This document shows, piece after piece, positions 275 to 64,000 of a stretch of DNA of 64,000 nucleotides; position 1 is the first letter of the stretch, and every line of letters starts with the position of its first letter. Source of the DNA: Sclerodactyla briareus. Its lineage: Eukaryota; Echinodermata; Holothuroidea; Dendrochirotida; Sclerodactylidae. Where the stretch lies: NCBI GenBank assembly GCA_026419785.1, contig JAODTK010005603.1, positions 62,001 to 126,000 on the forward strand, read 5' to 3'. Below the pieces are notes generated by a model, which was not told the DNA's origin, ran no database searches, and worked only from the letters and a program-made list of their open reading frames with translations. Made by a program: the position numbers and the translations under genes.

Positions 275-1116
275 AGATGGTTGTGGATGACATAGAGTCG
301 AAGTTGAAAAGACGCACCTGCGTAGTGATTCCTTGCCTGAATGGTTGTCAACTACTCAAAGCAAAACACTTCGTATGGAAACTCGCCACAGACAGGGCTC
401 ATGTATATAGGCCTGCCATATTTCTTTTTGTGTAATGGTGATATTACTATTACTGTCCACGCCAAGTGCCACAGGGCAGTATCGGTTCTTTGCCGCGCTG
501 TCACGTGACTGAACTTTCGTCACAGTTATCTCGATTTCTACAGCACGTTTTTGGCTGGGATTTGGGGTCTTCATTTCTGAGGATGCTGAGAGAAGACCTG
601 AGTGGCGTTCAGTGAAGAAGTTGGATTCCGAATTATTCTGAAATTCTGGGGGGGGGGAAAGGATTTTAGTGTTCGACTGGGCTCCAGTACAAATGGAATG
701 ACCAACATATAATTTGTGATCTGCTATACACATATCGCCTCTGTCATTAGGAAAATTTGTTTTGTAAAGGCACCTCGAATTTTATGATGTTCCAGACATG
801 CTATATTTTTTCCACCGGAACTTCCCGGCGATATGAATTTTTCTCCTATAACCAGGTGCATTTGGGCACTAGAAGATAATTATGGCGAACGCGTATAAGT
901 AATCTGGCTTGGATAACGGCCAGATCCATTAACAAGCACACGTGCATTGATTAGAATTTTTTCTATGTACAGATAAGCGCAAAGTCTGACAACATATTTA
1001 CTATTGCATCCGCTGAAGAACTTCAAAAGGACACTTTTCAGGCAATAATCCTATACAATCATCACGAGATGACCATGGTTCCTCTGCAGAGTGCATATCT
1101 GCAGAGTGACTCCACA

Positions 1117-1117
<1 letters not shown>

Positions 1118-1156
<39 letters not shown>
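1118..1156. repeat. Homopolymer A run (39 bases)
   Basis: An uninterrupted A tract. The matching site in the right copy (near 58175) has no A run, only ATTTCCACTAGTATGC. It is an insertion or expansion specific to the left copy. Confidence 0.95.
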
Positions 1157-1158
<2 letters not shown>

Positions 1159-1637
1159 GTATGCTTTTTTTCACCCGCATGTTGTAGTATTTTTGATTTC
1201 CAGTACATTCTTCGTTTCTGAGAATACGCTCCGAATGGGAATAAAAGGATGCAGTGTATACTCGGCCCTTCAGAAATGTGAGTCCTTGGCTTTTTGGTTG
1301 TGTGCGATATTTTTTCCTGTCGTCTCACTCGTCTGATGTTGAGGATTCATGGTATTGACCAAGGAATTTAAGGAGATTTGACATGCCTTCCCTCCCATCC
1401 AAAATATCAACTTTCCTACGTTTCCTGTTGTTTCTACGTCAGATTATGATAACCGCACGAGCTTCTTGCTTCTTCAACATTGACCCTAATGGTGTTCCTA
1501 GAATGTGAATCATAATTGTCGAATTGAACAAGTCTAAACGTTCTAAAAATTTATTCTGTCATATCGAAGGGGGGAAGCATACGCAGCAAAATCACTATTA
1601 TTGATATATGCCCTCGTTTCGCACTTAACGCACGTTC

Positions 1638-1985
1638 TATTACATATCCCCGCGACACTGGAAGTGTCCTGGATATTATGTTTTTTGGGGTGTAGCCCGC
1701 CCGCCGTCTCCGTCTGCCGTCTCCGCCGCCGCCGTCTCCGTCTTTCTCCGTCCCCGCCGCCGGCTCCGCCCACCGAACTCTAGCCGTTAGCGCAATAACC
1801 TGACAACTCTTCAACGCTTTATCGATTGATCTGAAACTTGGTAACATGTCCGCTGTATAACATCCTCGAATGAGTCGAACGGGCATTACTCCTGTCTGCT
1901 GCCCTCTATTTGCAGGTTGTACACGGAAATCTGAGTTTATCCGATTTTCTCGGAACGTATTGGGTGGGGACAAGTGGGGTCCCGA
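1638..1985 (+). mobile_element. MITE family P, copy 1 (left end and part of body)
   Basis: It begins with the family terminus (TATCCCCGCGACAC...GTGTCC..GGATATTATG), then GTAGCC and a CCG/GTC-rich stretch, then GTTAGCGCAATAAC and the body block CTGCTGCCCTCTATTTGCAG. It stops in a TTA repeat at about 2006 without the expected right inverted end. The complete copy is at 26773-27347. Confidence 0.7.
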
Positions 1986-2005
1986 AAAATATGACAGTGA
2001 TTCAT

Positions 2006-2076
2006 TATTATTGTTTTATTTTATTATTAGCATTATTATTATTATATTATTAATATTATTATTATTATTATTATTA
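2006..2076. repeat. TTA/ATT microsatellite
   Basis: Nearly pure TTA/ATT trinucleotides joined to the family G edge. The right duplicate has a much longer and more complex run at the same place (61161-61409). Confidence 0.9.
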
Positions 2077-2620
2077 ACAACACCGGACGCATCTAGTGTT
2101 TAAACCTACTAACCACGGTGTTTAATTTCTAAGAACCATTTTCTAAATGTCAACCGATAGCGCCTACTAAAATACTATTAAAACTTCGGAATTGACTGGT
2201 TTTGGAGATTTAATTTAACTAGCATATACTTGGTCACATCCATGGTTTAAACATACGCATTATGTTGTTCAATAGGGTGTCTGGGGGGCCGTTAAAAATA
2301 GAGAAACATTGTATAAGATATCATTAAGAGTGTTGAGACAGTTAAGAGTGTTGTTGGAACATAATTTGACATAACATTGTTTCTCTACTCTGCAACTTTC
2401 GGGCTAACAAGCCCAGTAAGATTGCAGGGGAATCCACGGGAACGACTACGAAGTACCACGCGGGCGGGCGGGTGAAATCGTTACTTGACCGATTCGAGAA
2501 AACGCCCGGCCGCCCGCGTGCATGGAAACTGGTCTATTGAAAACTATGGTTGGCGATTTTAACCCGCCCGCCCGCCCGCCCGCCCGCCCACTTGCATGGA
2601 AACGCGAGGATTCATGCGAG
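2065..2620 (+). repeat. GC-rich dispersed repeat family G, copy 1
   Basis: A TTA repeat, then CACCGGACGCATCTAGTG, TTAAACCTACTAACCACGG, GGCCGTTAAAAATAGAGAAA, and inverted blocks around GCGGGCGGGCGGG with AAATCG..ACTTGACCGATTCGAGAAAA and CGTGCATGGAAAC. Other copies: 12420-12915 (inverted), 16030-16330, 25735-25920, 50880-51245 and 61408-61795. Confidence 0.8.
2562..2590 (-). other. G-quadruplex-capable tract
   Basis: The minus strand has seven GGG runs separated by single C bases, inside family G copy 1. Shorter versions lie in the other copies. Confidence 0.7.
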
Positions 2621-3059
2621 TACAAAACATGAAAACGTGGCTGAGAGCTTCATTAGTTTGAGAGAAGATAGATATAGTTAGACGAGTTCCGTGCAGCAAA
2701 GAACGACTCTAATAAGATGGAACAACACTAACAAGGCTCAGAGCACCGCGCGTACCAATTGCGGCATTGAGGCCGTTCTCACTGACTCGAGAGAATATCG
2801 TCCCTCATAAAGCAAGAATAACGGTCCCTTATTCAATGAGTTGGTCAAAATTGTTTGTCGCTCCAACACTACTAATTACTCATCATACATTTCACTCTTC
2901 TAAGACATCAATTCTCTCTCGCAAAACTGGCAATTGTAACAACCATAAAAAACCGCCCCACCAACCGCACCTATGGAATCCTAGCCCCAATCTCTCCTTC
3001 TTTAGTTCATTTAGTGAAGGCGGATAAAACTTGATGGGTAATCTTCCTTACTCATTAAT

Positions 3060-3455
3060 ACGTATTGACTGTCTGCATCTTGTTGGAAGCCCGCTGGACT
3101 CTTTCCCCCAACACAATTCGCCGTTGTACAAGGCATGTCTCCTTGAATGTTCCACGCTATAAAGGCCTACAATTATAGAGCGGTTTAGGTAGTGGGTATA
3201 ACCCACGCGTCACATCATTTGTGGTATCTGCGAGGTAACGTGTGCGCCGCTGAGATGGCTATATACTAGTGTTATGAGGCTAAAGTGCACCTGGTCGGGT
3301 GCGAGTCGTTCTTTACCCAGTCTATATTCACTTTGATGAGGCGGTTGTGGTCGCTAGAATTCGTGCACGCATCCACTCCATACCATAGAGGTTGAGAAGT
3401 GTATGTTATACAAAAGTAACGTACAAACCAGAAAGCAAAAAACAAAACCCAGTTC
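3060..3455. other. About 400 bp present only in the left duplicate
   Basis: In the right copy, sequence equivalent to 3055 joins almost directly to sequence equivalent to 3456 (about 62150-62190). I see no inverted ends or clear target duplication, so this may be an insertion here or a deletion there. Confidence 0.6.
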
Positions 3456-4351
3456 CTTGACTGATCCTGATCAGCGAGTACTGTCGAATTTTGACTCATG
3501 TACTCGATATGGGAAACCGACACGGACATTAGTTGAGCAGAATCACATCTAGAAACTAGTTGAATATCAATTTTTCAGCATTTCCTATATAACCCAGATA
3601 TTTATAATAAAACACGGGGCTTAGAAATTGCAGCTAGGGCCCAGGGTTCGCAGACCCGGAACATTATAATAGCCTATGCGGACGAAATATAATTCTAGAA
3701 GATGCCGCTTCTCAGACCGTAACCAACGACTGGACACAATCAGCTTTATAAATTGCATGTACAAATGATGGATACTTTCATGTCCAGCCTCGTATTATTC
3801 ACGAGAAAAACATCTAAACATCAAAGTATAGCTCCCTGACTATGGGTCGTAGTGCACCTGCTGGTCTCTCATGTTTCCTATTAATCTTCTTGTGATGTAG
3901 GGGGAGAACGTAAGGCGTTTCCGTATGACTTGCATGTATCAACCGCCGTGAGAATGAGCTATAATGTTCTGCTCCGTACAAACATTCACCCGTAGTTCCA
4001 AATCATAGGGCTAAGATTCCACATTTGTCGATACGGTATGTTTAAGAGGAGCATTAAAACTGCATGATGAGTTGATGAGTCTATAAACGATCTAGCTATA
4101 CACGCAGAAGATATTCTATAGAAATTGATTTACCGTGACCAGCATCACGCCACCTTGGTACATCTGGTTTTTGCCTATATAGAATCACAGTTCCATTTTT
4201 ATTTGAATGACTTTTCATTGCAGTTAGGCTACTGACTTGTCCCACTCAGCTGAAGGCAAGGAACCGTTCAGTCACTGTTGTAAGTTCTCGTGTTCCCCAC
4301 TCAACGCTCAGGAGTAGCCTATATATCATACCTCACGCCACTCACTACCTC

Positions 4352-4668
4352 ATGAGAGCACATGCCAGGAAGGCACCTCGCCGCATCTACCACCCACCAC
4401 TTCTCAATCACGACGGCGGCCTCCTCCGGCAAGCAACCAGGTCTGGGCCGGGCCTGGTCAATCACCCGACTCCCGATGTACCCGCGACGCCTGCCCCAAC
4501 CATGAGCTACGAGGGCGTCCCTGGCGGTCGCCTCACCCGCCGATCCCCTTCACACATGACACGGTGGTCGATCGTTCGTGGGATGCGCGCCATATCCCGA
4601 AAGGGGCAGTTCGATCGCGAATCCTGGCAGCCACGTCCCTCTCCGCCTACCCGAACCCGGCAATTAGG
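4352..4668 (+). pseudogene. Proline/arginine-rich reading frame, left copy, cut by element X
   Basis: Starts MRAHARKAP, with GQATRPGP-like and PAPT segments. The same start (MEAHARKA) and pattern recur in the right copy at 63046. The two frames diverge by many indels. Both are interrupted by element X at the same place. I do not recognise the family. It may be the 5' part of a gene or just GC-rich sequence that happens to be open. Confidence 0.35.
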
Positions 4669-6039
4669 CAGGGCGACTATCATGGGGTACCAGGGGACAT
4701 CGCCCCCTCCCCCTTAGTTTTTGGTTGGGGACGCAACTCATTTTGTCCCCACATATTTGAGCCCGACTGCTTTCGCTGACAATATCCGACAAATCCAGCA
4801 GCAGCCATGTTCATACAATGCTACTGACCTAATGAGCTGTTGAGTGAATTCCTGCGCTCCTTAGCGAATTTTTGGCGGCTCTACTGCTCTTGCACTTATA
4901 ACCGTAGTGTTCAACTAGAATGTGCCTTGTGCAGACATACGATGTTCCTTACACATATGATGTTTCCTTAACAACAAAAAATTACTCAGGGTTCTCTTAA
5001 TTATCATGAAGAAAGGGTTCTCCTCCAATTCCTATCGTTTGCAACAAGACGGCTTTACACTGGTGTGATGCTCCTTCAAACCACTAACATACAAACACTA
5101 CATTGCGATGCAAGGGGGTTGAGGCGACGGGGTAGGTCTACTACCACCCTGCGGATCGGCACTTTTTTTTTTTTTTCGTTCTTTATCGAGTGCGCAACCA
5201 ATTGTTGAAAGTTGCGTGCACGCGGTGCACATACTATCATATGAGGGCAACACTGCGGCACTGAAAATGGCGGCAAGGAACACCAACAAATGGGTTGTCA
5301 TCTTCAAATTCAAGTGAAGAAAAGGCCAAGTCCAAATTTCGATGGAATGCCCAAAAGTGTAAACTTTGTGTTTTTTGAAGGGAAGGTTGAGGCGTATGGG
5401 GTAAGTCACCAACCTTGCGGGACCTGTGATTCTTTTGACATATATGTCTATTTGCAAATTCAAAATAGAGTATTCGCAATCAATTTATGGGTGCGACCAT
5501 CTCGTTGTAAAGTTGGGTGCGTGCACGGTGCACATACTAAGGGGGGGGGCACACATTGCGGGTGGAAACCTCTCTAAAAGATAATAATTCGTGCACAGAG
5601 TATGACATTATTAAAAATTCAGTTGCACTCCCATGCGCTGTGGTCCGCAAAGAAGATTAAAAAATGGGGGCCAGTGCAATGTCGGTGGTCAAATTGGATC
5701 CTGCAAAAATATCGCGCTCCGCGCGAACGTAGTGGTTGTTTCATTGTCCATTCCCATTGCTCCTTTCATGACCGTAACCTCACTTACATGGTATTTTAAA
5801 AGGTCACTTGCACTCAACGCAAAACTTTGAAATTGATCCCTGAGGCGATAGGCTTTTGGAGAATCTCTCCTAAAATACTTTTTTTTAATCAATATTAGGA
5901 ATGAGCTTACTGGTCCATAAGGCACGGGAAGTGCTGTTTACGCAATCTTGGGGGTCTGTCAAACGAATTGTTTTCCCTTGTACACTACACGCCAACCTTG
6001 TACTCCCCTTCCCCATCGCCAACACAAATCGCCCACTTG
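4669..6039 (+). mobile_element. hAT-like non-autonomous element X, copy 1
   Basis: The left end is CAGGGCGACTATCATGGGG. The right end is CGCCAACACAAATCGCCCACTTG, whose complement begins CAAGTGGGCGATTTG. These match the two ends of copy 2 (58725-61142, reversed). Inside are two diverged tandem modules, each with GGTTGAGGCG, a T-run or dinucleotide stretch, and GTGCACGCGGTGCACATACT-like sequence (about 5115-5290 and 5380-5570), and a CGCGCTCCGCGCGAACGTAG palindrome at 5713-5732. No transposase frame is seen. Possible degenerate 8-bp flanks: GCAATTAG and GCATAAGT. Confidence 0.7.
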
Positions 6040-6199
6040 GCATAAGTACGTGATCCTGCCAGCGGTCACCCAGGATTGCGTTGAAGTAAGGTACGTCAAA
6101 AAAAAGAATCCAATCGCCGTCTCAGCCCAATAGTGATAGCGTCCAAGCCGCACTAGAATGTAAGTAGTTACGAACTTGAAGAACATTTTCATCTAACAA

Positions 6200-6770
6200 C
6201 ACGGAGCTTGTTTTTTTGCTCAGATAACAGGACCGCCACACCCACTATCCAGGAATTTCATGACTCCATTGCCAGTCCAAGGCGTAAGACCTACGGAATG
6301 ACAAGAAGCAGAGTTCTAATGAACTTGCCGAGGTAACAATGACGGGGTGACTTCCACGTTCTTGCTCAATACTTGGACAGACCCAGCGCACTGTTCAAGA
6401 TTCCACTAAAAGACTGGATCTTAGCCTTGGTCCATGACACCTGGGCCCAACGGATTTGCTTCCCGACTGAGTGTTCCAAGGGCATCAACCAGAGAAATCA
6501 CAAACTCGGCGAGTAATGCATCATCTAGGTCAGGAAACCCTGACTCCACTGATAAGACCCCGCATTGGTACTATCTCACAACCCTCTCCATAAGACCCAA
6601 ACCCCAGTCCACACAAGTGGTGAAAAGTGTTGGCGCAAGTGTGCGCCCCTGTCTCACACCCGTGGCAACGAGGAAGAAGTCAGAGACTCCACCAGAACAC
6701 TTCACAGCACTCTCACTTCCAGAATACAGAGAGGATATCAGGTGTTCAAGACAGATTGGCACACCACACT
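6200..6770 (-). mobile_element. LINE reverse transcriptase remnant
   Basis: On the minus strand the frame from 6762 reads SDFFLVATGVRQG, then LAPTLFTTCVDWGLG, the motif-B region of a non-LTR reverse transcriptase (TGVRQG.LAPTLF). It continues into a degenerate active-site stretch (LDDALLAEFV in place of L.FADD...AE), VSWTKAKIQSF, and GNGVMKFLDSG near 6230-6290. It is broken by shifts and mutations and is not functional. Confidence 0.75.
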
Positions 6771-6834
6771 GCTCGAGATTTCAGCAAGAGGCCCCTACAC
6801 AACCCTTCGAAACTGTATCTCACGGCCTATTCTA

Positions 6835-6900
6835 CTACCACCACTCTTCGGAAAACGCACCCGATTCATCTCATTCTTTCGGATTTTATTGTTGGTAAGT
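6835..6900. repeat. Short module shared with 44100-44163
   Basis: CCGATTCATCTCA, then TTTCGGATTTTATTGTTG, resemble ACCAATTCATCTCA and TTTTCGGATGTTATTGTTG at 44128-44160. It may be the edge of a dispersed element. Confidence 0.5.
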
Positions 6901-6959
6901 ATGGGATCTTTGTGGATTTGTTTTTTTTTTTTTTTTTTATTTCTGTGCTGGTAGGATGT

Positions 6960-7100
6960 GTATGGGGGTCAAGCGCGGCGTCCCCCCCCCCAATATTTTG
7001 GTTGGTGACGTGTGCACTTTGTCCCCCCCCCCCGCGGGTATTTTATATACCACTAGTGTTCAGACATATAATATGCCTTGCGCAGACATATGATCAGTGT
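6960..7100 (+). mobile_element. hAT-like element X, short left-end fragment
   Basis: GCGCGGCGTCCCCCCCCC, CAATATTTTGGTTGGTGACG and GCGCAGACATATGATC match the left parts of copies 1 and 4. Both termini are absent. Confidence 0.55.
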
Positions 7101-7104
7101 TAGA

Positions 7105-7230
7105 GGACTCGGGTTAGGCCGGCCTCCGCCTCGAGGCCGGCCTCGAGGTCAGTTTTTCAGCGGTCTCGGCCCTCGCCCAGAGGCTGCAGCCTCGGGTTTT
7201 GGGCCGAGGCCTGGTCGGGGCCGGACAATA
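7105..7230. other. CpG-rich palindromic patch
   Basis: Overlapping palindromes built from GGCC and CCTCGAGG (GGCCGGCCTCC, CCTCGAGGCCGGCCTCGAGG). A similar but shorter patch is at 8900-8965. No gene seen. Confidence 0.6.
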
Positions 7231-7239
7231 TTTTTTTGC

Positions 7240-9034
7240 TAATAAAATGAAAAAAAATAAAAACATTTTTGTCACAAATGAATGCGTCCGGATTTGTTTG
7301 AATACAACCCGGCAACTTGACTACGTAGAATACCGGTATCACCCAAAAGACAGCCACATAAATGTACTTGCGCTGCACTCGGGCCCGCCGTGCGCCATGG
7401 AAGTTCCCAGGGCTGGAGTGCCGACTGCCTAGCAGCGAGCTGGCCATTAGAACCAACTTAGCAGTGAATCATGCACCGGCGCGTACACCATGTGAACACT
7501 CGCTCACTATCGCCCCCCTGTGCCGTTAGGGGAGTTCCGAGGTGAAAATTCTAGTCTCCTGGGTATAAGCCTGGAACTTAAAAATACCAAAGAATGTGTT
7601 TCTGGGCTGCAGATCATGGAATGTATTTTTAATATTTAATATAAAATGATATGTGCGGGGACGTTGGCATCAGTGATACCAGTCCTACTCTAGGCAAAAT
7701 TAATGGCGTCTGCACTCTGCAGTGCTTGAATAGCAATTTGTTTTTTTTCTTGTTTGTAATTTATTTAAAACCTATTCAGTATTAGGCTGTCAAATGTAGG
7801 CATAACGGACACTGTAGTTCTGTAGTCTGTAATAAAAAAATCCACCAATTATTCATTTTATTCCTTTATTTATGATCGACTTTAGTCAGAGGAATATATG
7901 CAGTCATGACAGTGTGTGTTAGTGTTGTGTTGGTGTGTATGGTGTTGTGTTGTGTGTGCGTGTGTAATAGGTGTGTGTGTCAGTGTGTGACGCCTGGCCC
8001 GGTTAACGCGATAAAACTCGACACACAATCAAGGTTCATACTTGGTATGCGGATTCCCCATAATGGCGTACCTGATCCATGGTGTTTTGTGGTGCAGGTC
8101 AGAAGTCTCATCTGAGGTCAACACACTACAAGCAGTCAAGGTAAGCCTCTTGGCTTTCTGGTTTGGTTTGGTCACTGTATGTGTTTTGGATTGATTGCGT
8201 GAATGTATTGCTTACGCCTAGCCAAGATGATTTTAACGTTATTTTTCTAAAATATGTGTCGACACAAAATTGATTGGATGGGCAGGTAGCTACTAATTAA
8301 TTTCCATAACCTTTTTTAAGGCCAGAAGATGGTGCGGCCAGAATCAAGTACTTTGCTCTATATTCCCTGGCTAGGAATGTTGTCATCTGTCCTAGTTAAT
8401 AGTGCGCCAGTGGAAAGAATGTGCCAGCCATTGGGGGGGGGGAAGGGGGAGGGGGGGGGGTAGTCTGAACCCACCACAGGGCGAAGCTTCTCCAGAGATG
8501 CTGGAATACTCATGTACTCAGCTATGAGGCCAGTACCTGTGCACTCATGAAAGAGGGCACAACGTGTGAAGAGTGGAACAGCCAACCAAGTGGTCAACTA
8601 TACAAAAGTAATTTAGGGTGAGGGTTAAATTTGATGAAGAAGTATATCCTTCAGAGCAAATCTCACAAGCATAACATTTTTACAACTGCATTCATGATTT
8701 TTCTTCATTCTGAAGTAGCCTACGGACTTCAAGATTAACATTGTTGCATATCAACTCGGAGGTTCAATCTTCCTTTTTGGGTTAAAACCTCTCTATTCCA
8801 TATATTAATCCTAATGAAAATTGGAGCCAGGGGAAGACAAAACGAAAGTATATATGCTTTAAACAGTGGTAATTCAAAATTTCATACTATAATATTATTG
8901 CCCGGCCTAGGAAGGTTGTGGCCTCGGGGCTCGACCTCAGGGGTGCGCCACGGCTTTGGATGTAGCGGCCTCCGACTACAAACACTGCCTTGAATTTCCT
9001 TAACAAAAATGCCCGAAATTTAATATGGGTGTTT
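7240..9034. other. Non-coding stretch with GT repeats and a poly-G tract
   Basis: No gene recognised. It holds a GT-rich run (7913-7985) and a G-rich tract at 8433-8460 that could fold as a G-quadruplex. Confidence 0.6.
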
Positions 9035-9600
9035 TAATTATATCCCGCGACATGAGTAGTGTATGGGGAATATTCATGGTTTTGGATGTGGAGCCGCCCA
9101 GCCTCCAACCGCCGCCGTCCCAGCCGCCGCCGCCAAAACTTGAGGGTTTAGCGCAATAAACTCTTTAAAGCTTCATTTGAATGATGGAAAATTGGTGCAA
9201 TGTTGCCTCTAGTGAAATCTCGGATGAGTTCGAAAAGTGGGCATTACTGCATGTTGCTTGCCATCTAATTTTGCAGATTTCACACGGAAATACTGAGTTT
9301 ATGCGATTTACACGAAACTTGGGGGTTGGGGACAAAAGTTGGTCACGAAACAGACGTAATTTCAAGGTCCCAACCCCCGGGGAGGTCAAATTTTGTGTAT
9401 TCCGCAATTTTTCCAATTCGTCGGATTACCACCAAAACTCGGTGATGTGGACTGTTGTTAGTCCGAAACAACATGAAGGTCATTTCGAGGTCACAGGAGT
9501 CAAAATTGGATGAATCATGCAATTTTTCTAAGTTGTCGTATTTGAACAAAACTTGAGAATGTGGACTACACGAACCTGAACAACGGGTAGGGGCATTTCA
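9035..9600 (+). mobile_element. MITE family P, copy 2 (right end missing)
   Basis: It starts TAATTATATCCCGCGACATG, with GCCGCC and CCGCCGCCGCC stretches, then GTTTAGCGCAATAAACTC and the body block AAATCTCGGATGAGTTCGAA shared with 26930-26955. The repeated GGTCATTTCGAGGTCA-type units follow. No right terminal inverted repeat is visible. Confidence 0.7.
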
Positions 9601-9699
9601 AATTCTGGAGGTCAAATGGACATACTTCAATGTTGCTTCCTTAAAACGAGGGTCCACAGAGGCTGTTTCTGAGGGGATATACACGTTGGACGTTTACCG

Positions 9700-9955
9700 C
9701 CTGCACTTGTATAGTGATCAATGAAAGAAGGTCATCCTCAACCCTTCATTGCATAAGGGGACTGGCTTCACCAGGCTTGGTGTGCTCCATTCTTCATTGG
9801 ACGTCGATTTCCCGCTAGGGAACAGTTAGTTGTAAAATGAATGAAAAAACTAAATACATCGTAGGTCTACCACCTGGGGGATCGGTGATTTTTTTCATTT
9901 TTATGTCATGAGTGCGACTGTACGCACCCGTCCAGCGTGTTGTGAGTCTTTAGGA
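9700..9955 (+). mobile_element. hAT-like element X, internal fragment
   Basis: GGCTTGGTGTGCTCCATTC, GTCGATTTCCCGCTAGGGAA and GGTCTACCACCTGGGGGATC match internal parts of element X as read in reverse from about 60650-60800. No termini. Confidence 0.5.
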
Positions 9956-10271
9956 TAGACCAACGTGGACAGAACCTTGTGACTTTACACAGATCTCTCG
10001 ACTGGATTAGACGGGAGAGATAGATGACCAACCAAGGTATATAGGGTGTCTTTCCCTTCTATTGCGTGTTTGAATAAGAACAAAGTATATGAAACTGTAA
10101 AACGAAAATGGAATTACGACGGCACATATAACACAATGTCAAATACCCAAAGGAATCCACGCCCAGTCAATTACTTCAATTAAATGAAATACGATGCGAG
10201 AGTTCCAAATTATCCCAAGGGCAATATTCGGCGAAATCCCGTCTAGGGTTAACATGGTATGACGCTCCACG

Positions 10272-11205
10272 CGAGATCGATACCTCACAAGCATGCGCCC
10301 CCGTCTCCCCACAGGTGCCTCCACTGCATGAGATCCGTCTCTCTAAAGGTACCTCATTGCAGGCTCTCCGTCACTCGACAGGTACTATCACTGCAAGCGC
10401 TCGTCTCTCGGCCAGGTATTCCGCGGCAGGCCCCGTCACTCGACAGAAACCTTCACTCCAAGCACTCCGTCTCTCGACAGTTACCTCCACTGCATGCGCT
10501 GCGACATTCGACAGTCTCGCCGTCACTCGACTGGTACCTTCACTGCATGCGCTCGACAATCGCTCAGGGACCTTCACTCATGCGACTCCGCCAATCGACA
10601 GGTACCTTCACTGCAGGTCTCCGTCACAGACAGGTATTTGTCACTGCACTCGCTCCGTCCGCGACAGGTATTTCGCTGAGGCACTTCCGTCACTCGACAG
10701 GATACATTCACTGCAAGAACCAGTCTTCGACAGGTACCTCCACTGAAGGCTCTCCGTCACTCGAAAGGTACTTTCACTGCATGCTCTCCGACTCTCGACA
10801 GATACCTTCACAGCAAGCGCTCCGTCTCTCGACAGGTATTTCCGATGCAGGCCCTTCAGTCTCTCGACAGGGACCTCAAGCACGCATCCGTCTCTCGACA
10901 GTACCTTACTGATGCGCTCCGTCTTCGGACAGGTCACCCAGGCATGCGCTCCGTCCTCGTCAGATACCTTCACTGCAGGATCTCCGTCACTCGAAGGTAC
11001 TTTCACTGCAAGCGCTCAGTCTCTCGACAGTATTCCGAGCAGGCCCTCCGTCTTCGACTGTACTTAACGGCATGCACTTGTCTCGACCGGTACATTCACT
11101 GCATGCTCTCCGACTCTCGACAGATACCTTCACAGCAAGCACTCCGACAATCGACAGATAACTCATGCATGCGTCCGTCATCGACAGGTACCTTCACTGT
11201 CCACC
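10272..11205 (+). repeat. 34-bp minisatellite A (about 27 units)
   Basis: The unit contains CTCCGTCTCTCGACAGG followed by TACCTTCACTGCATGCG, 34 bases. Adjacent perfect-length units can be counted at about 10540-10610. Units vary by substitution and by 1-2 base gaps. Because 34 is not a multiple of three, the long open frames across it are a by-product of the repeat. Confidence 0.92.
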
Positions 11206-12419: not shown

Positions 12420-12915
12420 ATTTTAGTTCTGTGTTAAGCGGCTTTTCCATGCAGAGGGGCGGGCGGCGTGAGTTTAAAATCGCTCACCGTTATTTCCAAT
12501 GGAGCCATTTCCATGCACGCGGGCGGGCGGGCGTTTTCCTTAATCGGTCATGTTGCGATTTTTTACGCCGGCCCGCATGCCCGCGTGGTATTTCGTAATC
12601 AAAATTTAGGGGGATTTCCCTGGCATCTACTGGCTTGTAGCCCGAGCGGCAGAGTAGAGAAACAATGTTATGTTCAAATCATGTTCCAAGCAACACTTCC
12701 TAACTGTTTCAACACTCGTAGAGATATTTAAACATTCTTTCATTTTTTACGGCCCTTCCCCGGTACACCTATTGAACACTAATGAATGTTTGTTTTTTTA
12801 AACCATTGACGTGTCAAGTTGTGTAACTTAAATCCTCCAAAACCGCCAATTGTGAAGTTTAATTGTATTTTAGGCGCTATCGTTGACATTTAGAACAACG
12901 AGTAGTCTAAGAACT
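12420..12915 (-). repeat. GC-rich dispersed repeat family G, copy 2 (inverted)
   Basis: Reading the minus strand reproduces copy 1 in order. On the plus strand: TTTCCATGCACGCGGGCGGG, AATCGGTCATGTTGCGATTT, GGCTTGTAGCCCGAGCGGCA, GAGAAACAATGTTATG, CCAAAACCGCCAATTGTGAA, GGCGCTATCGTTGACATTTA. It lies directly upstream of the LINE at 12930. Confidence 0.8.
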
Positions 12916-16330: not shown

Positions 16331-16339
16331 TTTGGCCAC

Positions 16340-30490: not shown

Positions 30491-30511
30491 AAGCAGACTT
30501 CACATACATAA

Positions 30512-30544
<33 letters not shown>

Positions 30545-37141: not shown

Positions 37142-37186
<45 letters not shown>

Positions 37187-38785: not shown

Positions 38786-38831
<46 letters not shown>

Positions 38832-52320: not shown

Positions 52321-53839
52321 GGTGAGTATCGATGAGCGACTGTGGTAATGGTAGATAACAATAAAGCATTGAATCATTTCTTGTAATATGAAGTGTCCAC
52401 CAGGCGAAGGTCACTCGCTCATCGAACAATCCAAAGCGCGTTTGTGCCCTAAGTAAGATGAAATCATGGCTCATTATAAACGACAGCAGGCCGGAGATCG
52501 CTGGAGTATGGTATAAAAAGGGGACGTTGTAGAGGGGGGTTCCCACACCCAAAAAAATGGAACCAATGTGGAAGAGTGTGGAAATCTGGTGCCCAGTCGG
52601 AATTTTTTGGAAGGTAGCTCAGGGTTAGTATTCACACGAAGAAAGAAAAAGAGTAATATGTATATGGGGTATGTATGGCATCTTTGGGATTTCGGCTCCG
52701 TGCCAGCGCCGCTTTTGGCTTTCAGGCAGCAGGACTTGTGGTTAGGTCTGTCAGAACCGGATTGGAAAAAGTAGTTGAGGTTGGAAACTCCTACGAATAA
52801 ACTTTTGGCAATTACAATCAGGAATGATGATTGATGACATTAGGAAATATACACATGAGCAACCAGCGGCACTAACTTCCATACAGAGGGCAGTCTCTAA
52901 GTGCCAAAAATTGCGCTAAAAATGCACAATATTTCTCAATTTTCCTCACTCCAAGCCATGGATGGGGTCATGGCGCTTCGCTTATACTTCAGTTGGTATC
53001 CTAGGCCTAAATAACTTCTGTAATAATCACACACACTTCCTTCTGTCAGATCACTTCTCAATAACAAACATTTGGCAACTAACTAAATATATCCAAATGG
53101 ATTTCCATGTACTCACAAGGCGCCAGTTTTGCTGTTTTCGGGAAACGTTTTTGCAAAATTTCTACGCTTCGCGCTATATAGTTCACGCTCCGCTGATACT
53201 AACGTCTCGTTGTGATCACGACAGCTAGGCTTTCTTCTGCCAACGTCATCAAACTCACAAATATTCGCAGCTATAACTAGACACACAATTTTACCAGGGC
53301 AACCCTTCCCACTTACGAACTGTTGGTGGCACAATCGGCAGGATACAAGGAAAGTTCAACAGAGAATAGGGGGCATTCGGCACATGAAATGTCAAAAGTA
53401 CCATTTACCGGATCTTTCTGCTGGGTGCCCGATTTTTACGCTCAAAATGATGTTTCCGTGTCATTCGCGAAAAATGGGAGATTTGGCTACTTTTCAAGCA
53501 AATTAGAAAAGTCCTGTACACCCATAAACAACAGCTTATAAATGGGTATAACATGGATTTTCCCATGAGCAGGAGGGGGAGGTGCCGTCAAAGCACCAAA
53601 CTGTGTGCAACTTTTCATTTATGAACAATTCTGCACACTTACATGACGTTCCCAGGATGTCACCATTTGCAAGGCGCCTCTTCCAGATGTTCCTTGGCTC
53701 AATTGATTTTTTTTTCCTTCCAGTCGGAATTTTGTAGCCTTTTCATCCCCCTAATCGTCAGACCTTTCCACCCCAAATCTCGGACCCTAGCTACGTCCCT
53801 GTGTACAAGACCTGGTATACCAATGTAGCGACCGCGTTG
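52321..53839. other. Upstream flank of the P450 gene
   Basis: Presumed promoter side of the minus-strand P450 gene. TATAAAAAGG at 52512-52521 lies on the plus strand and so is in the wrong orientation for it. 53015-53090 is shared with 25660-25725. Confidence 0.4.
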
Positions 53840-54615
53840 GCATCACTGGTATGGCAGCACTACAGACAGCATACCACATATAGACTGGTGTTCCTCCGCC
53901 GGCTCCCCAAAAATAGTCTCCAAATTACATTGGAGCGCACTCTAGAGCAGTTTCCTGATCCCTGCTGGGTCCAGAGTTGCCTGCAGTGGACAGGCCATTC
54001 TAGGAAGTACCACATATGCCAGTTTTGGACATTTGGGGCCAATTTCTGACCATTTTCTGAATTGACACTTGGATGCTGAGAAATCTGATTTCCGACTGGC
54101 AGCCCCGATCGGGATAACCCAAAAAGCACAGGCAACCCTGGCTGCCTGGTGAGAAATCTAAACGTTGAAGGTATGGTGAATTTAAAGTGCCATGACAGGT
54201 ATTCATGTTCAGCCTTAAAATGGTGGGTGGCTCATCCCTGGAAGTATGTTCTGTTGGGATCAGCAGCTGGTGGAACGTTAGACAGTTTAGTGTGTGGGTC
54301 AATGGGACGCCTAATTGTGGTGTCCCCCTACAGGATCCCACCAGAGAGTGACATGACAACACGTGGTTCCACATCCGACGCCGACGAAGGAGAACGAGAA
54401 GGCTAAGATCCTCTGGGACTTCGAGATACGAACAGACAGGGGTAATTAGCCGCGCACGGAAACCAGCCAGGTGCGTGTCGCGTGGCCTGTACCCAATGAC
54501 AACCAACAGTGGAGGAATAGGAGGAACACTGGAAGGTTCCAGGATCAGTGTCAAACAGCATCGATGGAAACTTGGAGAAGATCCCCGAGAAGCAGCACTG
54601 TAAAGGTGGGGACAC
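53840..54615 (+). mobile_element. LINE 3' fragment with AKILWDFEIRTD domain
   Basis: The frame near 54402 reads AKILWDFEIRTDR and ARKP, then in another frame VPGSVSNSIDGNLEKIPEKQ (about 54535-54595). This matches the C-terminal domain (WDF.IQTD..I.ARRPD ... LG..P..L..NLEKI) of a LINE type widespread in invertebrates. The middle, including the IID.A.PGD part, is missing. Similarity upstream to 53840 is weak. Confidence 0.65.
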
Positions 54616-54750
54616 GAGTCTATTGACTCGGGCTCGAGTCCCAATTTCCGTGACTCGAGACTTGACTATTTTATTCTTAGAATTGACTTGTGACGACTCG
54701 ACTCGATTGCAACCGACGGTCCGACTTGCGACTTAATTGACTTGTTGCCA
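54606..54750. repeat. GACTCG/GACTTG-rich simple sequence
   Basis: Irregular repeats of GACTCGAG, GACTTG and GACTCGACTCG over about 140 bases, next to the LINE fragment's 3' end. Confidence 0.7.
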
Positions 54751-57304
54751 ACAAAAGTCGAAAACCAGTTTCTGCGGGTTTTTTTTTTTTACTTTCTTTC
54801 ACCGAATAGTCCGCGAAACCGCCGAAAGCGTCATCAATGATTGCGAGCAAGTTAACTCGGTAACTCCGAGTGTTTTCTGACTATTTTGGCCGTATGGAAC
54901 TAGGTCGGGTATTTCTCGACGGGGAGGGTCCGTGCCCCCACCCCCGCTGACGCCGCTCTTGGTCAGTATAATATAGTTTCTGATCTAGTATTACTCACTG
55001 TGTTATTTTTTCACAGAGCTGTGTGTTTGAAGCCGGGCGAACGCCCGTGCTCGCCTCATTATTTATTGCAAAGAAGTTGTTTTACTGGGGCTACCAATAG
55101 CCCGTCCTTCAAGTTTCGTTCTGTGCGATGTTGTGGCCGCCGACTACGTGACGTTTAATCATTTTATCGCTCGTGCAGAAAATCATACTTTCCTCAAGTT
55201 TCCTCACGTTAATATCCATGAATAAGAACACCTAAGATATTGTTTTGCACGAGTTTGGTTTTAGAGGACAACTGCGGCTCGGATACAACAGAGCTTATAT
55301 CGTGTAGAATGGTAAACTACTATAGTCCAAACCCCATTTCAGTACGATGTGAATATGTGGAGTTGTTGGCCTTTAAGTTTGGGCCATATAAAGGCAAGAT
55401 TGGGGAGAATCCCAATCGCGCTATAACGCATACTCACATCATGGACAACTCAGAAATCATGACATGTATTTGATTTCCATTTTGTTTAATAAGTCACATA
55501 GCAGAAGTTCTGTCGTCTCTCTTACCAAATTAACCAACAACACCTACCAACCCCTACAGCAACCCTCCATAGACTATATCAGCTTCTCGAAGTGATTAAC
55601 GTTTTGAATTTCATAGAACAAAGATGTATGCAGGTTGTGCATTATGACTCATTTATTAGTGCATGATGGATGCCTTCCGATCTTGCGCAATACACATGCT
55701 TCATAATACACAAACTTCAAAAGACGATAACTCCGTAACGAAAAGTCCTATGACTCCCGGTTTGGACTGGCGATTTCAGTTGTATATATATAGCCCCCTT
55801 TATAAATCATTCTGCAGTGTTCCTTTTCACATATAGCGGCGATTGTATGATGAACAGCAACAGTAAATATAGGTGAAATAACATACTGACCACAATATCT
55901 CATTCGGCCATTGGAGACCGAATCAGGTAGATAAATACAGACAAACAGCAATGTAACTGCATGTCACTTCACATACCTTTGGGAATATGGCCGTCTGTGA
56001 TTTTGTAAATATACTCCAGTCACTGCTACAGAGTACTCCCTGCTCGGTTTCGCTCATGTATTGAACGCAGCTGTCAACGAAACGAAGTGCACCGTTCTAT
56101 AGCCCAATGAACTAATACGACTATATAGATATAAATCATTTTTATAAACGACTTTCAACGACTGTTCTTGTTGAGATCTGTATGGATGCTAGGACAAGTA
56201 CACCAGTGGCACTCCGTGGGGTATCTTGGAACCGCATTCGACCAGACACGTTCGAGTCCGTGTTTTAATAACCAAATAGGGTAAACAACTTACACAATAA
56301 TCCACTGTCGTGGATCCAATAGGCCGCGCCAAACTGCTACCATTGACCACACCCCGGAATCGGAACATACGAGAATTTCAACTGGTCACATTCTTTGAGC
56401 TTACGTAAAGTCTAAAATTGCAGCATGCCGTGGAACCAGGTGTTGGTAGGTGTCCACGGTGTACCCGACGCAATTCACTTAATGTCCCTCCAGTGAAATT
56501 CCCGCAGCAGTGGACAAATCCAGGTAAATCAATATCAACCAGCATGTTGGAAGAAAGCTCAGTGCACTAGGTTTCACAGAAGGTATGGTAGGCCTACAGC
56601 AGTCACGTAGTCCCCATATTTCAACTCCTCGACATGATACGTCAAGAAACGTGAAGGCCAGGACATGACGAGGAATTGACAGAATGATATCTGGCAAAAT
56701 AAAGGTTTTTTTGGATTTGCGTGTGCTCGTGTTTCCATGCTTACACAATGTTGGCCCTCTGGGGTACTATAAGTCTCATAGGGCCCCATCCTCATCACAT
56801 CATCATATGCCTTTCAACGTTTTTTTGTTTTCTAGCTGACAGAGTTGGACCATGGACATGTTTTAACTCACTTTAAACGGTGTAGGCGATGTCACCGACT
56901 ACAGGCTTAACCATATTTTAGAACACTCGTACTGGAACAACCTAATCCAAACTCCTAGACCCCGTAAGACCCTTCAAATATCTCACAGTTGGCACTAACT
57001 CACTATCATCTATCCCCAGTATGCCACCTGAGGGGGGGGGGGACATACCCTCATATAGGCCCTGCAATTTGGAGTCTTTGTGAGACCAAATGGGTCCATG
57101 TGGTTCAGCGGAAAGCACGAAATAATGTATGGAATGATCACGGTGATCATGCTCTTCTAGACATGGCTCCTCAAGCATTGAAAAAAAAATAAATGAATCA
57201 GCAGTATTGTTTTGAGGCCCTCCAACTTTTCTGTTTGGGGACCGGAAATGTGGAAAGGTAGAGAACCTAGTCTCAACAGTGGAACAGCCATGATGGCCTC
57301 ATTG
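54751..57304. other. Unassigned stretch before the right duplicate
   Basis: No gene recognised. A G-run is at 57033-57041. The sequence is mixed and partly AT-rich, with only short frames. Confidence 0.45.
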
Positions 57305-58654
57305 AACGATGGTTGTTTGATGAACATAGAGCGAAGTTAAAAAGAACGCAACATTGCGTATGATTCTTGCCGGAATGGTTGTAACTAATCTTGCAAGCAT
57401 GGAACTACATTCGTATTGCAACCCTCCACAGATTCAGGGCTCATTTATAATAGGCCTGCCATATTTCATTTTTTGTTGTAAGGATGGTGAGATATTACTA
57501 TTTGACCGTCCATGTGTTCAAGTGACCAGGGCAGTAATAGGTTTTTGTTGCGCTGACCGTGACCGACCTTTCGTCACAGTTATCTCGATTTCTACAGCAC
57601 AGTTTTTGGTCTGGGATTTAGGGTCTTCATTCTGAGGATGCTGAAATTTGAGACTGAGTGGAGTTCATTGAAGAACTTTGGATGCGAATTATTAATGGAA
57701 AATTATGGGGGGAAAAAGGATTTTAGTTTCGACCGGGCTCGAGAAAAAGGACATGCCCCACATCTAACTTGTGAGCTGCGACACAGATCGCTCGGTAATT
57801 AGGAACATTTGTTTTGTAAGTCTTGTCACCTCGAATTTTATGGATGTTTCAGACAGTGCTATAAAAGGAATCCGCTGCGAAATATGATTTATTCTCCTAT
57901 AATCATTAGCAATTTGGGCACTAGAAGAGAGTTATTGGCATACCGTAACACGTAAGGCTTCTGGCTTGGAATAACGGCCAGATCCCATTAACAAGCACAC
58001 GTGCATTGATTTCGACTTTTTCTATGTCAGACATTAGAGGCAAAGTAATGACAACATATTCATATTGCAATGCCTGAAGAACTTCAAAAGGACACTTTTC
58101 AGGCACTATCCTCTACACTCACACGATATGAACAGTGGTCCAATCTGCAGAGTGCATGCACTCTCTGCGAGTGATTTCCACTAGTATGCTTTTTTCACTA
58201 GCATGTTAAAGTATTGTTGATTTCCAGTACATTTCTTCGTTTCTGAGAATACTCTTCCGATTATGAATAAAACGATGCAGCGTACACTCGGCCATTCAGA
58301 AAATGTGAGTCCTTGCTTCTGGTTGTGTGCGATATTTTTTCTGTCGTCTCACTCGTCTGATGTTGAGGATCCATGGTGATTGACTAATGATATTAGGGAG
58401 ATTATGACATGCCTCCCTCTCCGGATATCAACTTCCTACGGTTTCTCTGTTGGTTCTAACGTCAGATTATGAAACACGCACGAGGTTCTTCTTTAACATT
58501 GACCCTAATGTGTTGCCTAGAATTGTGTGAATCATAATTGTCAGACTAAACAACGTTCTAAATGTTCTGAAATCGATTCGGTCATATCGAAGGGGGGAAA
58601 GCATACAACGTAGCAAAATCCTATCATTTGCATATACCTCGTTCGGCACTTTAT

Positions 58655-58724
58655 CGCACGTCTGATTATATCCCCAGCGACAACGGAAGTGTCCGGGGAT
58701 AATTATGGTTTTCGGGGGTGTAGC
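58655..58724 (+). mobile_element. MITE family P, copy 4: left terminus, split by a later insertion
   Basis: TTATATCCCCAGCGACAACG...GTGTCCGGGGATAATTATGG followed by GGTGTAGC. The sequence then breaks at 58725 into the 2.4-kb hAT-like element, and a short remnant GTGTGCCGTCCTCCGTCG resumes at 61143. Confidence 0.7.
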
Positions 58725-61142
58725 CAAGGGCGGCGATTTGTGTTGGCGATTGGGGGGGGGTGGGGACGACACGATAAAGTATCAAATGGAGCGCCACCAT
58801 AGTTGGCGCGTAGTTCCAAGAAATTTTGTTGTTCGCGTTGAAACAGACCCCCCCCCCCCTAAGATTGCAGGGAAACGGAAACTTCCCGTTGGCTAATGGG
58901 ACATTTAAGCAGCATTCCTGAAATTGATAACAATTTTGTTATTTTAGGGAAGGTTCTCCCAAATCATCGCCTCAGAGATTAATTTCAAGGTTATGCGTTG
59001 GGTGCTATGATAGTTCTATAGTCCATGCAAGTGAGGTATACGGTCATGAGAGCAGCAATGGAAATGGGCAAAAGCAACAACCACTACGTTCGCGCGAAGC
59101 GCGAGATTTTGCAGGTTATCCAATTTGACTAACGACATTGCACTGCATGACCCCAGGCTCTCTGGCCCAGGGGGCGTCGGAGGTTTCGAAAAGTGGGGGG
59201 GGGACACATCGGATGTAAATGACCATCTGAGCGGAGCGCCACCATCGGTTGCGCGGATGCGTAAAGAAAATTTCAGATTTTCCATACCCCCAGATGACGG
59301 AAACGGCACTTGCCAGGCTCAATAGCCACCCATCTACATGTGTTGATTTGAAAAACAGGAAAATTGTCAGCAAAAATTTGGGAGCAGAAAATTTGTACCC
59401 GAATGACAAGTCGGTCGTTTGAAATTACAGACGCGCGAAATAATTTGAAGCATTACATCGCATATTTAGCCTACAACGCCTAGAAGCAAAACGCCATTGC
59501 CCGCGAAACACTTGAAAAATTATGCACTTTTGGCTATTCGATTTAAAATTCGATAACTTGGTATGTACATGGGTACTCCTTCGATTTCGGCCCTAGTCGG
59601 GTCCAGATCTTCACCTGGGGTCCGCACCTGGAATTATTGGACTTGAAACAGTTCCACCTATTTTGTTTGTTAACAACATTGAATCAGTTAGCGTGATACA
59701 AAATCGGGCAGTGCCTTTTATTTTTCTTATACGGTGTGGAAAAGTGGGGGGACCAAACGATATGATATCCCCCCCTTTTAGAAAGTGGGGGGGACATGTC
59801 CCCCCGTCCCCCACCTGTTGACGCCCATGCTCTGGCCTATCACTTAGCCTGATTTTTTTTATTCAAAGATTACGGCCCACGGCCACCCCAACTTTTTTTG
59901 TCTTCTTTGGTCGGACCACAGGCGCGTAGGAGAGACAATTCCAATTGGGGCTAGACAATGTGGCCAATGAGGTATAACCATAAGTTAAAACTGCAACTCG
60001 CGCGAGCGCGCGCGAAAATTTTGCATGTTGTATTCCAATCGAAAGTCCGTCAGAAATCTTTGGATATAGACTTATCTCCACCTGAATTTTGAATCATGTC
60101 TTTGCACGAATTGTGGCGTTCCCTGGCCGATCTTTGACGGCTATTTCAGGAGTTCCCACCCGCACTGTGTTCCCGCCTCCTCAGTATGTGCACCGTGTAC
60201 GCACCCAACTTTTCACAAGTGTCGCACCCCTGAATTGATTGCTGAATAACGCGCTTATTTAAAATTTTTTCGAAAAGCAACAACACATATCTGCCAAAAA
60301 ATTCAAAGTTCCCGCCAGGTGGTAAACTTAACCCCATCGCCTCAACCTTCTTCCCTTATAACAACAAAGTTCACACTTGAGGGCATTCCCCCCGAAAATT
60401 CAGGGCAAATATTTTGGACTTAAGAATCCTTTTCTTCTCCATTCTTTCACTTGAATTTGAATCATGTCTTTTGCATAACGCATGGGTGGCGTCCCTGGCC
60501 GCATGCATTATCGATGCCGCACCGTGTGCCCTCATTAGTGATAGTACATTTGCAAGCTGTGCACACAACTTTCAACAAGTGTTCGCACCCTTACCCATGA
60601 ACTAAAAAAAAAAAACAGATCCCGCCATGGTGGTAACCACCGCTGTCGCCTCAACGCTCAAACCACCCCTTTATCCCTCAAGGGAGCGATTCTTTGTTAG
60701 TTTTGTTTATTACTTAACTGTCCCGTAGCAGGAAATCGACACCATCCAATGAGGAGCAACACACCAAAGCTGGTAAGCCGGTCTTAGGGCAAACGATGGG
60801 AATAGTATTTCTGATAAGTACGAATAACCAGAACAGATGTGCAGGCATTTTCGTTAAGGCCATCATATGTCCTCATAGGTCCATCATGGTCCTGAACACT
60901 ATACGGCGCCTAAATACCGCGCCGTAGCGCGCAAAAATTTCGAAAATGGAGCGCTTATTCAATCAACTTGATCATTTAGGGTCATCATGCATCTGTTAAA
61001 ACACGGTTACTATATGTCGGATCAGTGTCAGCGAAAAAAAGCAGTCGGGCTCAAAATATTGGGGGGACAAAATGCATGCGTCCCCCAACCGAAATATTGG
61101 GGGGACGCCGTCCCCCCCGTCCCCCCATGATCGCCGCCCCTG
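58725..61142 (-). mobile_element. hAT-like element X, copy 2: 2.4-kb insertion specific to the right duplicate
   Basis: The left end CAAGGGCGGCGATTTGTG and right end GATCGCCGCCCCTG (complement CAGGGGCGGCGATC) form a terminal inverted repeat of about 13 bp. Flanks read GGTGTAGC before and GGTGTGCC around the right end, an imperfect 8-bp target duplication. CAGGGGCGG-type ends with 8-bp duplications are typical of hAT elements. The corresponding site in the left duplicate (about 1695-1705, GGTGTAGCCCGCCCGCC) lacks the element. There is no transposase; it carries two or three tandem GTGCAC..CACATACT modules. Confidence 0.78.
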
Positions 61143-61160
61143 GTGTGCCGTCCTCCGTCG

Positions 61161-61212
61161 TATTATTATTATGATTATGATGATGATTATGATGATGATG
61201 ATGATGATGATG

Positions 61213-61248
<36 letters not shown>

Positions 61249-61409
61249 ATTATATTATTATTATTATTATATTATTATTATTATTATTATTATATTATTA
61301 TTTTATTATATTATTATTATTATTAATGATGATGATGATGATGATGATAATAATAATAATTATTATCATTATTATTTTATTATCATCATCATCATCATCA
61401 TCATTATTT
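61161..61409. repeat. Compound ATT/GAT/ATC microsatellite with inverted blocks
   Basis: ATT, then GAT repeats (about 61190-61248), TTA repeats, GAT repeats again (61327-61348), AAT/ATT, then ATC repeats (61383-61405). GAT and ATC tracts are complementary and can pair. Confidence 0.92.
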
Positions 61410-61795
61410 ATCAAACACCGGACGCATACGAGTGTTTAAACCTAAACATCGGGGTTTAATTCCTAAGAACCATTGTTCTAAATGTCCGCTGCGCGAGCGC
61501 CTAAATACTATTAAAACTCCGAAATTGACAGGTTTTGGAGATTTAACTAGCGAATACTTGACATGTCAATGTTCTGGGGGCCGTTAAAAATAGAGAAACA
61601 TTGTATAAGATATCATTACGAGTGTTGAAATAGTTATGAGTGTTGCTTGGATGGGCGGGCGGGTAAAAATCGCTCACCATAGCTTTCAATAGACCCGTTT
61701 CCATGCACGCGGGCGGGCGGGGGTTTTCTCGAATCGGTCAAGTAGCGATTTTACCCGCCGCCGCCCACGTGCATGGGAACGCCGAGGATTCATGC
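61408..61795 (+). repeat. GC-rich family G, copy 6
   Basis: Collinear with copy 1 within the long duplication: CACCGGACGCATACGAGTG, GGTTTTGGAGATTTAACTAG, GGGCCGTTAAAAATAGAGAA, CTCGAATCGGTCAAGTAGCG. It lacks the extra inverted block that copy 1 has at about 2345-2480. Confidence 0.8.
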
Positions 61796-63045
61796 GAGTA
61801 CAAAACATGAAACGTGGCTGGATGAGCTTCAATTAGTTTGAGAGAGATAGAAAGAGACGAGTTCCGTTGCAGAAAAGAAAAAAAAACATCTAAATATAAT
61901 GGAACCACACTGAGAAGGCCAATGAATCGGAGAGAATTATCGTCCTCATAAAGCAAGATAACGTCCTTATTCATGGTTGTCCATATTGTTTTCGTCCTTC
62001 TATCTCATCATACAGTGTCCATCTCTTCTAAGCAATCATTCGCTCTCGCAAAAACTTGAATTGTACCAACCTACCCCGCACCATGGATTCCTAGCCCCAA
62101 TCTCTCATTCTCTCCAGTTATGAGGTGGATTAAAACTTGATGGGTACTTCTTACTCAAGATAACATTTGGCATTCCGTATCCTCGACTGATCCTGATCAG
62201 GCGAAGTACTGTCGAATTTTCACTCATGTAAACGATATGGGAAACCCACATATCGACATTAGTGAGCATAATCCATCTAAAAACTGTTAGAAAAATAGCA
62301 TTTTCCGCCTTTCCCATATAACCCATATATTTAGAATAAAACACGGGGCTTTTGAAATTACAGCTAGGGCCCAGGGTCCGCAGACAGCGGAACATTATTA
62401 TAGCCTATGCGGACGAAATAGAATTCTAGAAGATTCCGCTTCCCAGACCAGTAAACATACGACTGGACACAATTAGGCGTTATAAATGGCATGTACAAAT
62501 GATGGATACCCTCCATGTCCAGCTCGTTCATTCACGAGAAAAACATCTTAACATCAAAGTATAGCTCCCCGACTATGGGTCAGTTAGTGCAACCTGATGG
62601 TTGCTCTCATTGTGTTCCTAGTATCTTCTTGTGATGTAAGGGATACGGTATAGCGTTTCTTCTGTGAGGATTGCATGGTTCAACCCGCAGTGAGTATATG
62701 ATTTCTGTTAGTACAACATTCCACCCTGTAATTCCAAATCTAGGCTAAGATTCCACATTTGCGAATACGGTAATGTTTAAGAAGGATTAAACTGCATGAT
62801 GAGGTAATGAGGCTATAACGATCTAGCTATACACGCAGAATATATTCTATAGGATTGATTTACCGTGACGCAGCATCAGCGCGGCATTGGTACATAAGGT
62901 TATGTTGCCCATATTAGTAATCACAGTTCCATTTTATTTGAATGGCTTTTTACAGTAGCTTGTTCCAAGTGAAGGTAAGAGCTGTTCACTTTGTTTGTAA
63001 AAGATCAGAGTAGGCCTATATCATCATCACTCCCTCACTCACTCA

Positions 63046-63326
63046 TGGAGGCACATGCCAGGAAGGCACTAGCCGCACCACCCGCCGCTTCCAATCAACG
63101 GCCTTCCTCCGGGCAGGCAACCAGGCCTGGTCCAGCATCAACCCAAACCCCTGAATACCCGCGAGCTGCGCCAACCTTAGTCCCAGCGGGCGGCCTCAAC
63201 CCGCCGGCCTGGGTAGACGGGATCGTTGCCGAGTTGCGGCCATATGCCCAAAGAAGCCGGCAGTTGGGATCGCGAAATCTGGCAGCCAACCTACCAGATC
63301 CGCCTCCCCGAGGACCTGACATTAGG
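63046..63326 (+). pseudogene. Proline/arginine-rich reading frame, right copy, cut by element X
   Basis: Frame from ATG at 63046 reads MEAHARKALAAPPAA and later WVDGIVAELRPYAQRSRQLG. This copy is cleaner than the left one and its second half looks protein-like. Element X begins at 63327. The function is unknown. Confidence 0.4.
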
Positions 63327-64000
63327 CAAGGGCGACGGTCATGGGGGAAACGCCCCCCCCCCAATCTTTTGGTGGGGGGACGCAAACCATTTTATCCCCT
63401 CATATTTGAGCCGGTTGCTATTACGCTGACACTGTGATCCGAAATATCCAGAAGGCATTGCAGATATCGCTTGCATTTATAAACCGGTAGTGTCAGACAT
63501 TAATGTGCCTGTGCAGACATACGATGTCCCTTATTACTCAGGGTAGTTCTTAATTACCAATGAAGAAAGGGTTCTCCGCCAATCCCTATCGTTTGCGTAA
63601 GGCTGACTTTACCAGCTTGGTGTGATGCTCTTTCAAACAAACTAACATACAAATCGCTATATTGAGATTAGTGGATGAAGGGACGGGGACTAGGTCTACC
63701 CCTGGCGGTGATTTGTGATTTTTCTTCTTTTCTTTATTCATGGGTGCGACCAATAGTGTACATACTATCATAGGGGCACACCGTGCGGCCACTGAAAAGC
63801 GGCAAGGGAACACCCCAAATTGCGGTTGTCAAAATTTCAAGTGAAGATAAAGGCCGAATATTGCCGCATTTTCCGATTGGAATGCCCCAAGTGTCAACTT
63901 TGTTTTTGGAGAGAAGGAGGTTGAGGCGACGGGGGTAAGTCTACCACATGGCGAGACTTTTGTGGGATATGGTTTTTGCAAATTCAAAATAGAGTATTCG
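63327..64000 (+). mobile_element. hAT-like element X, copy 4 (left part, truncated by the window edge)
   Basis: It begins CAAGGGCGACGGTCATGGGG, then CAATCTTTTGGTGGGGGGAC and CATATTTGAGCCGG. It is inserted at the same relative place as copy 1 in the left duplicate, so the insertion is older than the duplication. Confidence 0.75.

Follow-up and report, generated by a model that had tools for sequence, protein, structure and literature searches.

The window is a 64,000-nucleotide stretch of the Sclerodactyla briareus assembly, equal to positions 62001-126000 of contig C2846, which has 344,957 bases and was examined from base 1 to 256000. The contig carries two related copies in the same orientation, named A and B. 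Copy A occupies contig 1-68980 (69 kb); it starts at contig base 1 and most of it lies to the left of the window. Copy B occupies contig 96573-127467 (31 kb), which is window 34573 to beyond 64000. Between them is a 27.6-kb spacer, X (window 6981-34572, contig 68981-96572), to which no part of A or of contig 127468-256000 is collinear. Pfam searches of 20 selected long reading frames (10 in the window and 10 in the flanks) gave nothing above the curated cut-off; a weak match to PF16201 (E 0.0085) reaches 16.1 bits where the cut-off is 29.6. Rfam searches of the window and of 15 of 20 flank loci gave nothing at the gathering score, and ARAGORN finds no tRNA in the window.

Self-alignment of the window shows that 276-5476 recurs at 57308-64000, collinear and on the plus strand. 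The plus-strand pairs are 276-1697 with 57308-58725, 2023-2358 with 61359-61651, 2579-3054 with 61754-62157, 3454-4801 with 62180-63454, 4889-4951 with 63470-63533 and 4981-5476 with 63533-64000. At E 1e-5 no match was produced by 50 first-order resamplings. Ten 5.2-kb control slices from other parts of the window were compared with the right end: nine aligned over no more than 117 columns, and the tenth (53035-58260) takes in part of the right copy. The match starts at 276 because window 1-275 is the end of a repeat array present only in A (contig about 60389-62291). After the first block of B (57308-58725, partner of 276-1697), the sequence at 58726-61237 is absent from the matching place in A and contains inverted stretches related to sequence in A. 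Window 1998-3054 of A (plus strand) holds an ATT microsatellite, a 573-bp dispersed mobile element (2034-2606) and the sequence that follows. Its plus-strand partner in B is 61238-62157, where the element is incomplete (61364-61651) and has one end inverted. The microsatellite and the element stand at equivalent positions in both copies, as the initial annotation had claimed, with the element partial at the right. Homology in the right part of A (window 3454-6980, plus strand) stops at 6980 (contig 68980), beside degenerate minisatellite-like units, and the corresponding part of B (window 62180-64000, plus strand) runs past the window to contig 127467. The pair had been described as about 5.2 kb, joining 275-5500 to 57305 through the window end. 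The collinear recurrence holds but the extent does not, since A continues to 6980 and its partner ends beyond the window.

Extended past the window, as the initial annotation had proposed, the pair reaches contig 1-68980 and 96573-127467. First come collinear matches between parts of contig 1-59538 and parts of 96573-118750 (window 34573-56750); contig 62276-68980 then matches 119308-127467 in the same collinear order. All blocks of B are on the plus strand. The leftmost (window 34573-39424, contig 96573-101424) is the partner of contig 1-4635. Most of it, in both copies, is a dispersed mobile element that holds a nested second element. Window 39415-49694, which includes contig 106153-109290, pairs with contig 13596-29759 in separate blocks, A being several kb longer. 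Window 51201-52935 has two partners in A, contig 52883-54647 and 43947-45760, the latter in the other unit of A's 9-kb tandem. Window 55831-56750 pairs with contig 58626-59538. A duplication that brackets the window is therefore not an accurate description, because parts of window 34573-56750 also belong to B and have their partners in contig 1-59538. The self-alignment does show a long collinear diagonal, and the two copies are homologous as a locus and not through dispersed elements alone.

The two copies differ in extra sequence. A alone has contig 4635-13596, 23106-27381, parts within 29759-52883, and 59538-62271; B alone has about contig 120726-123237. Inside A is a head-to-tail tandem with units of about 8.5-9 kb (contig 41446-50533 and 50532-58963) and a ratio of transitions to transversions (ti/tv) of 0.15-0.35. 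Its units differ from each other by no more than the error floor described below, and B has parts of one unit. The A-only array at contig 60389-62291 (window up to 291) is one of three arrays of the same repeat, whose unit is about 580-600 bp long; the others are at contig 146897-148796 and 194378-196078, and all three are near an identity ceiling of 80-83%. The right edges of homology (contig 68980 and 127467) adjoin a few degenerate units resembling a 34-bp minisatellite. At the edge of A the resemblance is an 18-base exact piece (E 0.074, weak), and at the edge of B it was judged by eye. Large arrays of the 34-bp minisatellite lie in X (contig 78812-86617 and 87021-87457). This degenerate minisatellite forms an array of about 8 kb with longer higher-order units, at window 16812-24617 and 25007-25457.

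One indication of common origin comes from the left end of each copy. The dispersed element there is present on at least 31 other contigs in a search of the assembly (319,486,128 bases in 3171 contigs). Its two parts (query 1-1481 and 2369-3617) adjoin each other elsewhere, for example on C3074, C3112, C252 and C2773. In A and in B alike, another element separates those two parts; five further contigs have this second element alone. Since this nested insertion is common to A and B, they are copies of one locus. Together with the collinear plus-strand blocks, it upholds the claim that a single locus occurs twice with the same orientation. The dispersed mobile element at window 33527-38747 (contig 95527-100747) and contig 1-3617 contains tandem units of about 400 bp; on C2251 at least nine of these units stand in an array.

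Two other interpretations of the contig were rejected. An inverted segmental duplication inside A (contig 37153-42929) does not have the nested element common to A and B; the inverted match is best explained as a separate insertion of the dispersed element that stands at the left end of each copy. An origin of the contig from another organism does not fit with several of its elements, which occur on many other contigs.

Assembly searches scored the best 40 candidates each, among which a full-length allele is expected to rank. The non-repeat piece at contig 20001-23100 (3.1 kb) has two full-length places among the matches listed, both on C2846; the one in B is contig 106153-109290. The same holds for the first 1.4 kb of the repeat pair in the window (query 1-1423; window 276-1697, contig 62276-63697, plus strand), which has two places only among the matches listed, both on this contig. 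There is no third full-length copy of the tested A and B pieces among the matches listed.

At face value A and B are 73-79% identical in letters, a difference of 21-27%. The 14 blocks shared by A and B (19,963 aligned sites) have 7.1% mismatches and gap events at 11.9% per site, 73% of the gaps are 1 bp, and ti/tv is 0.46. Transversions exceed transitions and gap events exceed mismatches. Ten other repeat pairs on the contig (14,951 sites), comprising the 9-kb head-to-tail tandem in four pieces, the three arrays and three dispersed pairs, have 6.6% mismatches, 11.9% gap events, 76% 1-bp gaps and a ti/tv of 0.33. Repeats of different kinds in C2846 share one error-like floor. Simulated ordinary divergence (four settings) gave a ti/tv of 0.87-1.74 and a gap/mismatch ratio of 0.47-1.27, and simulated unbiased error (six settings) gave 0.48-0.52 and 2.6-3.9. 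The observed gap/mismatch ratios (1.63 for A and B, 1.76 for the other pairs) are between the two simulation sets, the observed ti/tv values (0.46 and 0.33) are below both, and none of the six error settings matches the observed values exactly. This comparison points to error with its own substitution bias. A-C and G-T together account for 54% of mismatches in the left blocks of A and B and 40% in the right blocks; the figure for the 9-kb tandem is 62%, and for five other pairs from C2846 it is 52%. Elsewhere, an older element (26 copies) has a share of 28%, and two smaller sets, of three copies each from other contigs, have 37-38%. It is very likely that the apparent divergence of A and B is mainly uncorrected consensus error.

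Two features of the letters were noted separately. Unbroken A runs of 39 (window 1118-1156) and 43 bases (38787-38829) are present, as are runs of 10-15 G or C, and such long homopolymer runs fit oddly with an error of several percent per copy. Contig 1-256000, the minisatellite excluded, has 219 reading frames of at least 100 codons, compared with 129-152 in five resamplings, and the longest has 244 codons, compared with 176-222. Since long frames are more numerous than in resampled sequence, frame lengths do not show the error.

The 9-kb tandem of A was taken as the error floor for the difference between A and B. In the left nine blocks transitions are 0.53% above this floor (bootstrap interval 0.13-0.92), and in the right five blocks they are 1.92% above it (interval 1.41-2.43). 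No significant excess of transversions over the tandem floor was found in these blocks. The excess is underestimated if the tandem has real differences, and it shifts if local error rates differ. The left half probably has a true substitution difference of about 1% or less, and the right half one of roughly 2-3%. The duplication had been called long diverged, but the difference above the floor is of the order of 1-3% and not 21-27%. A segmental duplication is usually defined by a length of at least 1 kb and an identity of at least 90%. Several blocks of A and B are longer than 1 kb, the non-repeat 3.1-kb piece is in both copies and the nested insertion is common to them. Against the 90% threshold, identity is 73-79% as printed; after allowing for the error floor it would be about 97-99%.

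Error-like features are also seen elsewhere in the assembly. In one element with 29 copies, the three copies from C2846 rank first, second and fifth in 1-bp gap rate (0.072, 0.067 and 0.060; range 0.031-0.072) and first to third in all gap events. Therefore, the error is not uniform and C2846 is at the worse end. Pairs of this element among the other contigs have fewer gaps, 0.067 per site, and a ti/tv of 1.06, a more natural profile; a second comparison of the element gives a consistent result. A younger element on three other contigs has an error-like look, with mismatches of 0.058-0.060, a ti/tv of 0.42-0.59 and gaps of 0.060-0.089. An 18-base universal 18S probe has one match in the assembly, at the very end of C1886 (11,946 bases). 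The gene there (C1886:10211-11946) is SSU_rRNA_eukarya with 819 bits. Counted over six printed blocks, with one variable block and one cut block excluded, 24 of 260 consensus capital columns differ and 4 of 260 are missing. Eleven of the 24 differing columns are A-C or G-U, four of these in the 530-loop stretch. Damage at such conserved positions is a further sign of base error. Some of the 28 changes may be lineage differences, and the gene could be a single decayed copy. Among the matches listed in the assembly searches, the query itself aside, none exceeds 85% identity over at least 300 bases.

The initial annotation proposed either a segmental duplication about 57 kb apart or two haplotypes of one locus placed in tandem. 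Both remain the main candidates. A recent real local segmental duplication is slightly favoured over misjoined alleles, with a probability of about 0.5. A recent event would have placed the copies in direct orientation on one contig with the 27.6-kb spacer between them; afterwards A may have gained mobile elements and tandem arrays, or B may have lost them, giving 69 kb against 31 kb. A and B resemble known low-copy repeats in being long direct copies on the same contig with later insertions in each. They are unlike them in that the letters are only 73-79% identical, a result of base error, and that the physical junction is a putative one. On this reading the join would be biological and not made by the assembler. 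If A and B were instead two haplotypes placed in tandem, with a false join at or near contig 68980, they would have been kept apart by their large insertions. PMC9516828 describes such false allelic (heterotype) duplications; there, 7-24% of false duplications lay on the same scaffold. This possibility carries appreciable but lesser weight. The tested pieces have exactly two places, both on C2846, as two alleles would give, and a difference of 1-3% above the floor is of allelic size too. Copy A begins exactly at the contig end, its homology ends beside minisatellite-like units where assemblers misjoin, and C2846 is among the more error-rich contigs. However, contig 1-256000 contains no N bases, so there is no gap between A and B; PMC9516828 lists a gap as a usual mark, though it is not an obligatory one. 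Moreover, assembly searches with contig 69000-74000, 89000-96500 and 129000-135000 showed no second allele, dispersed elements aside. Since these pieces of spacer and right flank keep no second allele, alleles seem to be collapsed elsewhere in C2846. X has no match to the sequence right of B except dispersed repeats, so a false join would have to coincide with the end of homology.

The remaining alternatives are weaker. The same DNA may have been assembled twice, with read errors preventing collapse, a class of false (homotype) duplication that is named in PMC9516828. Error does dominate the difference between A and B, and the left blocks are close to the floor. However, copies of this kind should be identical apart from read error, yet each copy here has kilobase insertions and transitions are in excess, most clearly in the right half (1.9%, interval 1.4-2.4%). 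Neither feature is a read error; this explanation is very unlikely. A truly old segmental duplication, about 22% diverged, agrees with the face-value identity and was rejected as scarcely credible. Gaps exceed mismatches, 73% of them are 1 bp, transversions exceed transitions, and the other pairs of C2846 have nearly the same values. The ti/tv of 0.46 and gap/mismatch ratio of 1.63 are not those of simulated divergence, and the excess of A-C and G-T is likewise error-like. Depth and k-mer tests separate allelic from error-caused false duplications according to PMC9516828.

In the searches made, repeat copies in this assembly are rarely more than about 80-85% identical, apparently as a result of base error. 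It is therefore misleading to take the age of a duplication or mobile element, a reading frame or a comparison of copies from the raw letters. It is rather unlikely that A and B are a biological, very young duplication in which A has come to more than twice the length of B (69 and 31 kb) at about 1-3% nucleotide difference. If this were true, the locus would be a local hot spot where structure changes much faster than point mutations accumulate, and A would have grown through mobile-element insertion, array growth and its internal 9-kb tandem. If the pair is physical, A and B form a recent segmental duplication of the ordinary kind whose structural turnover is marked.
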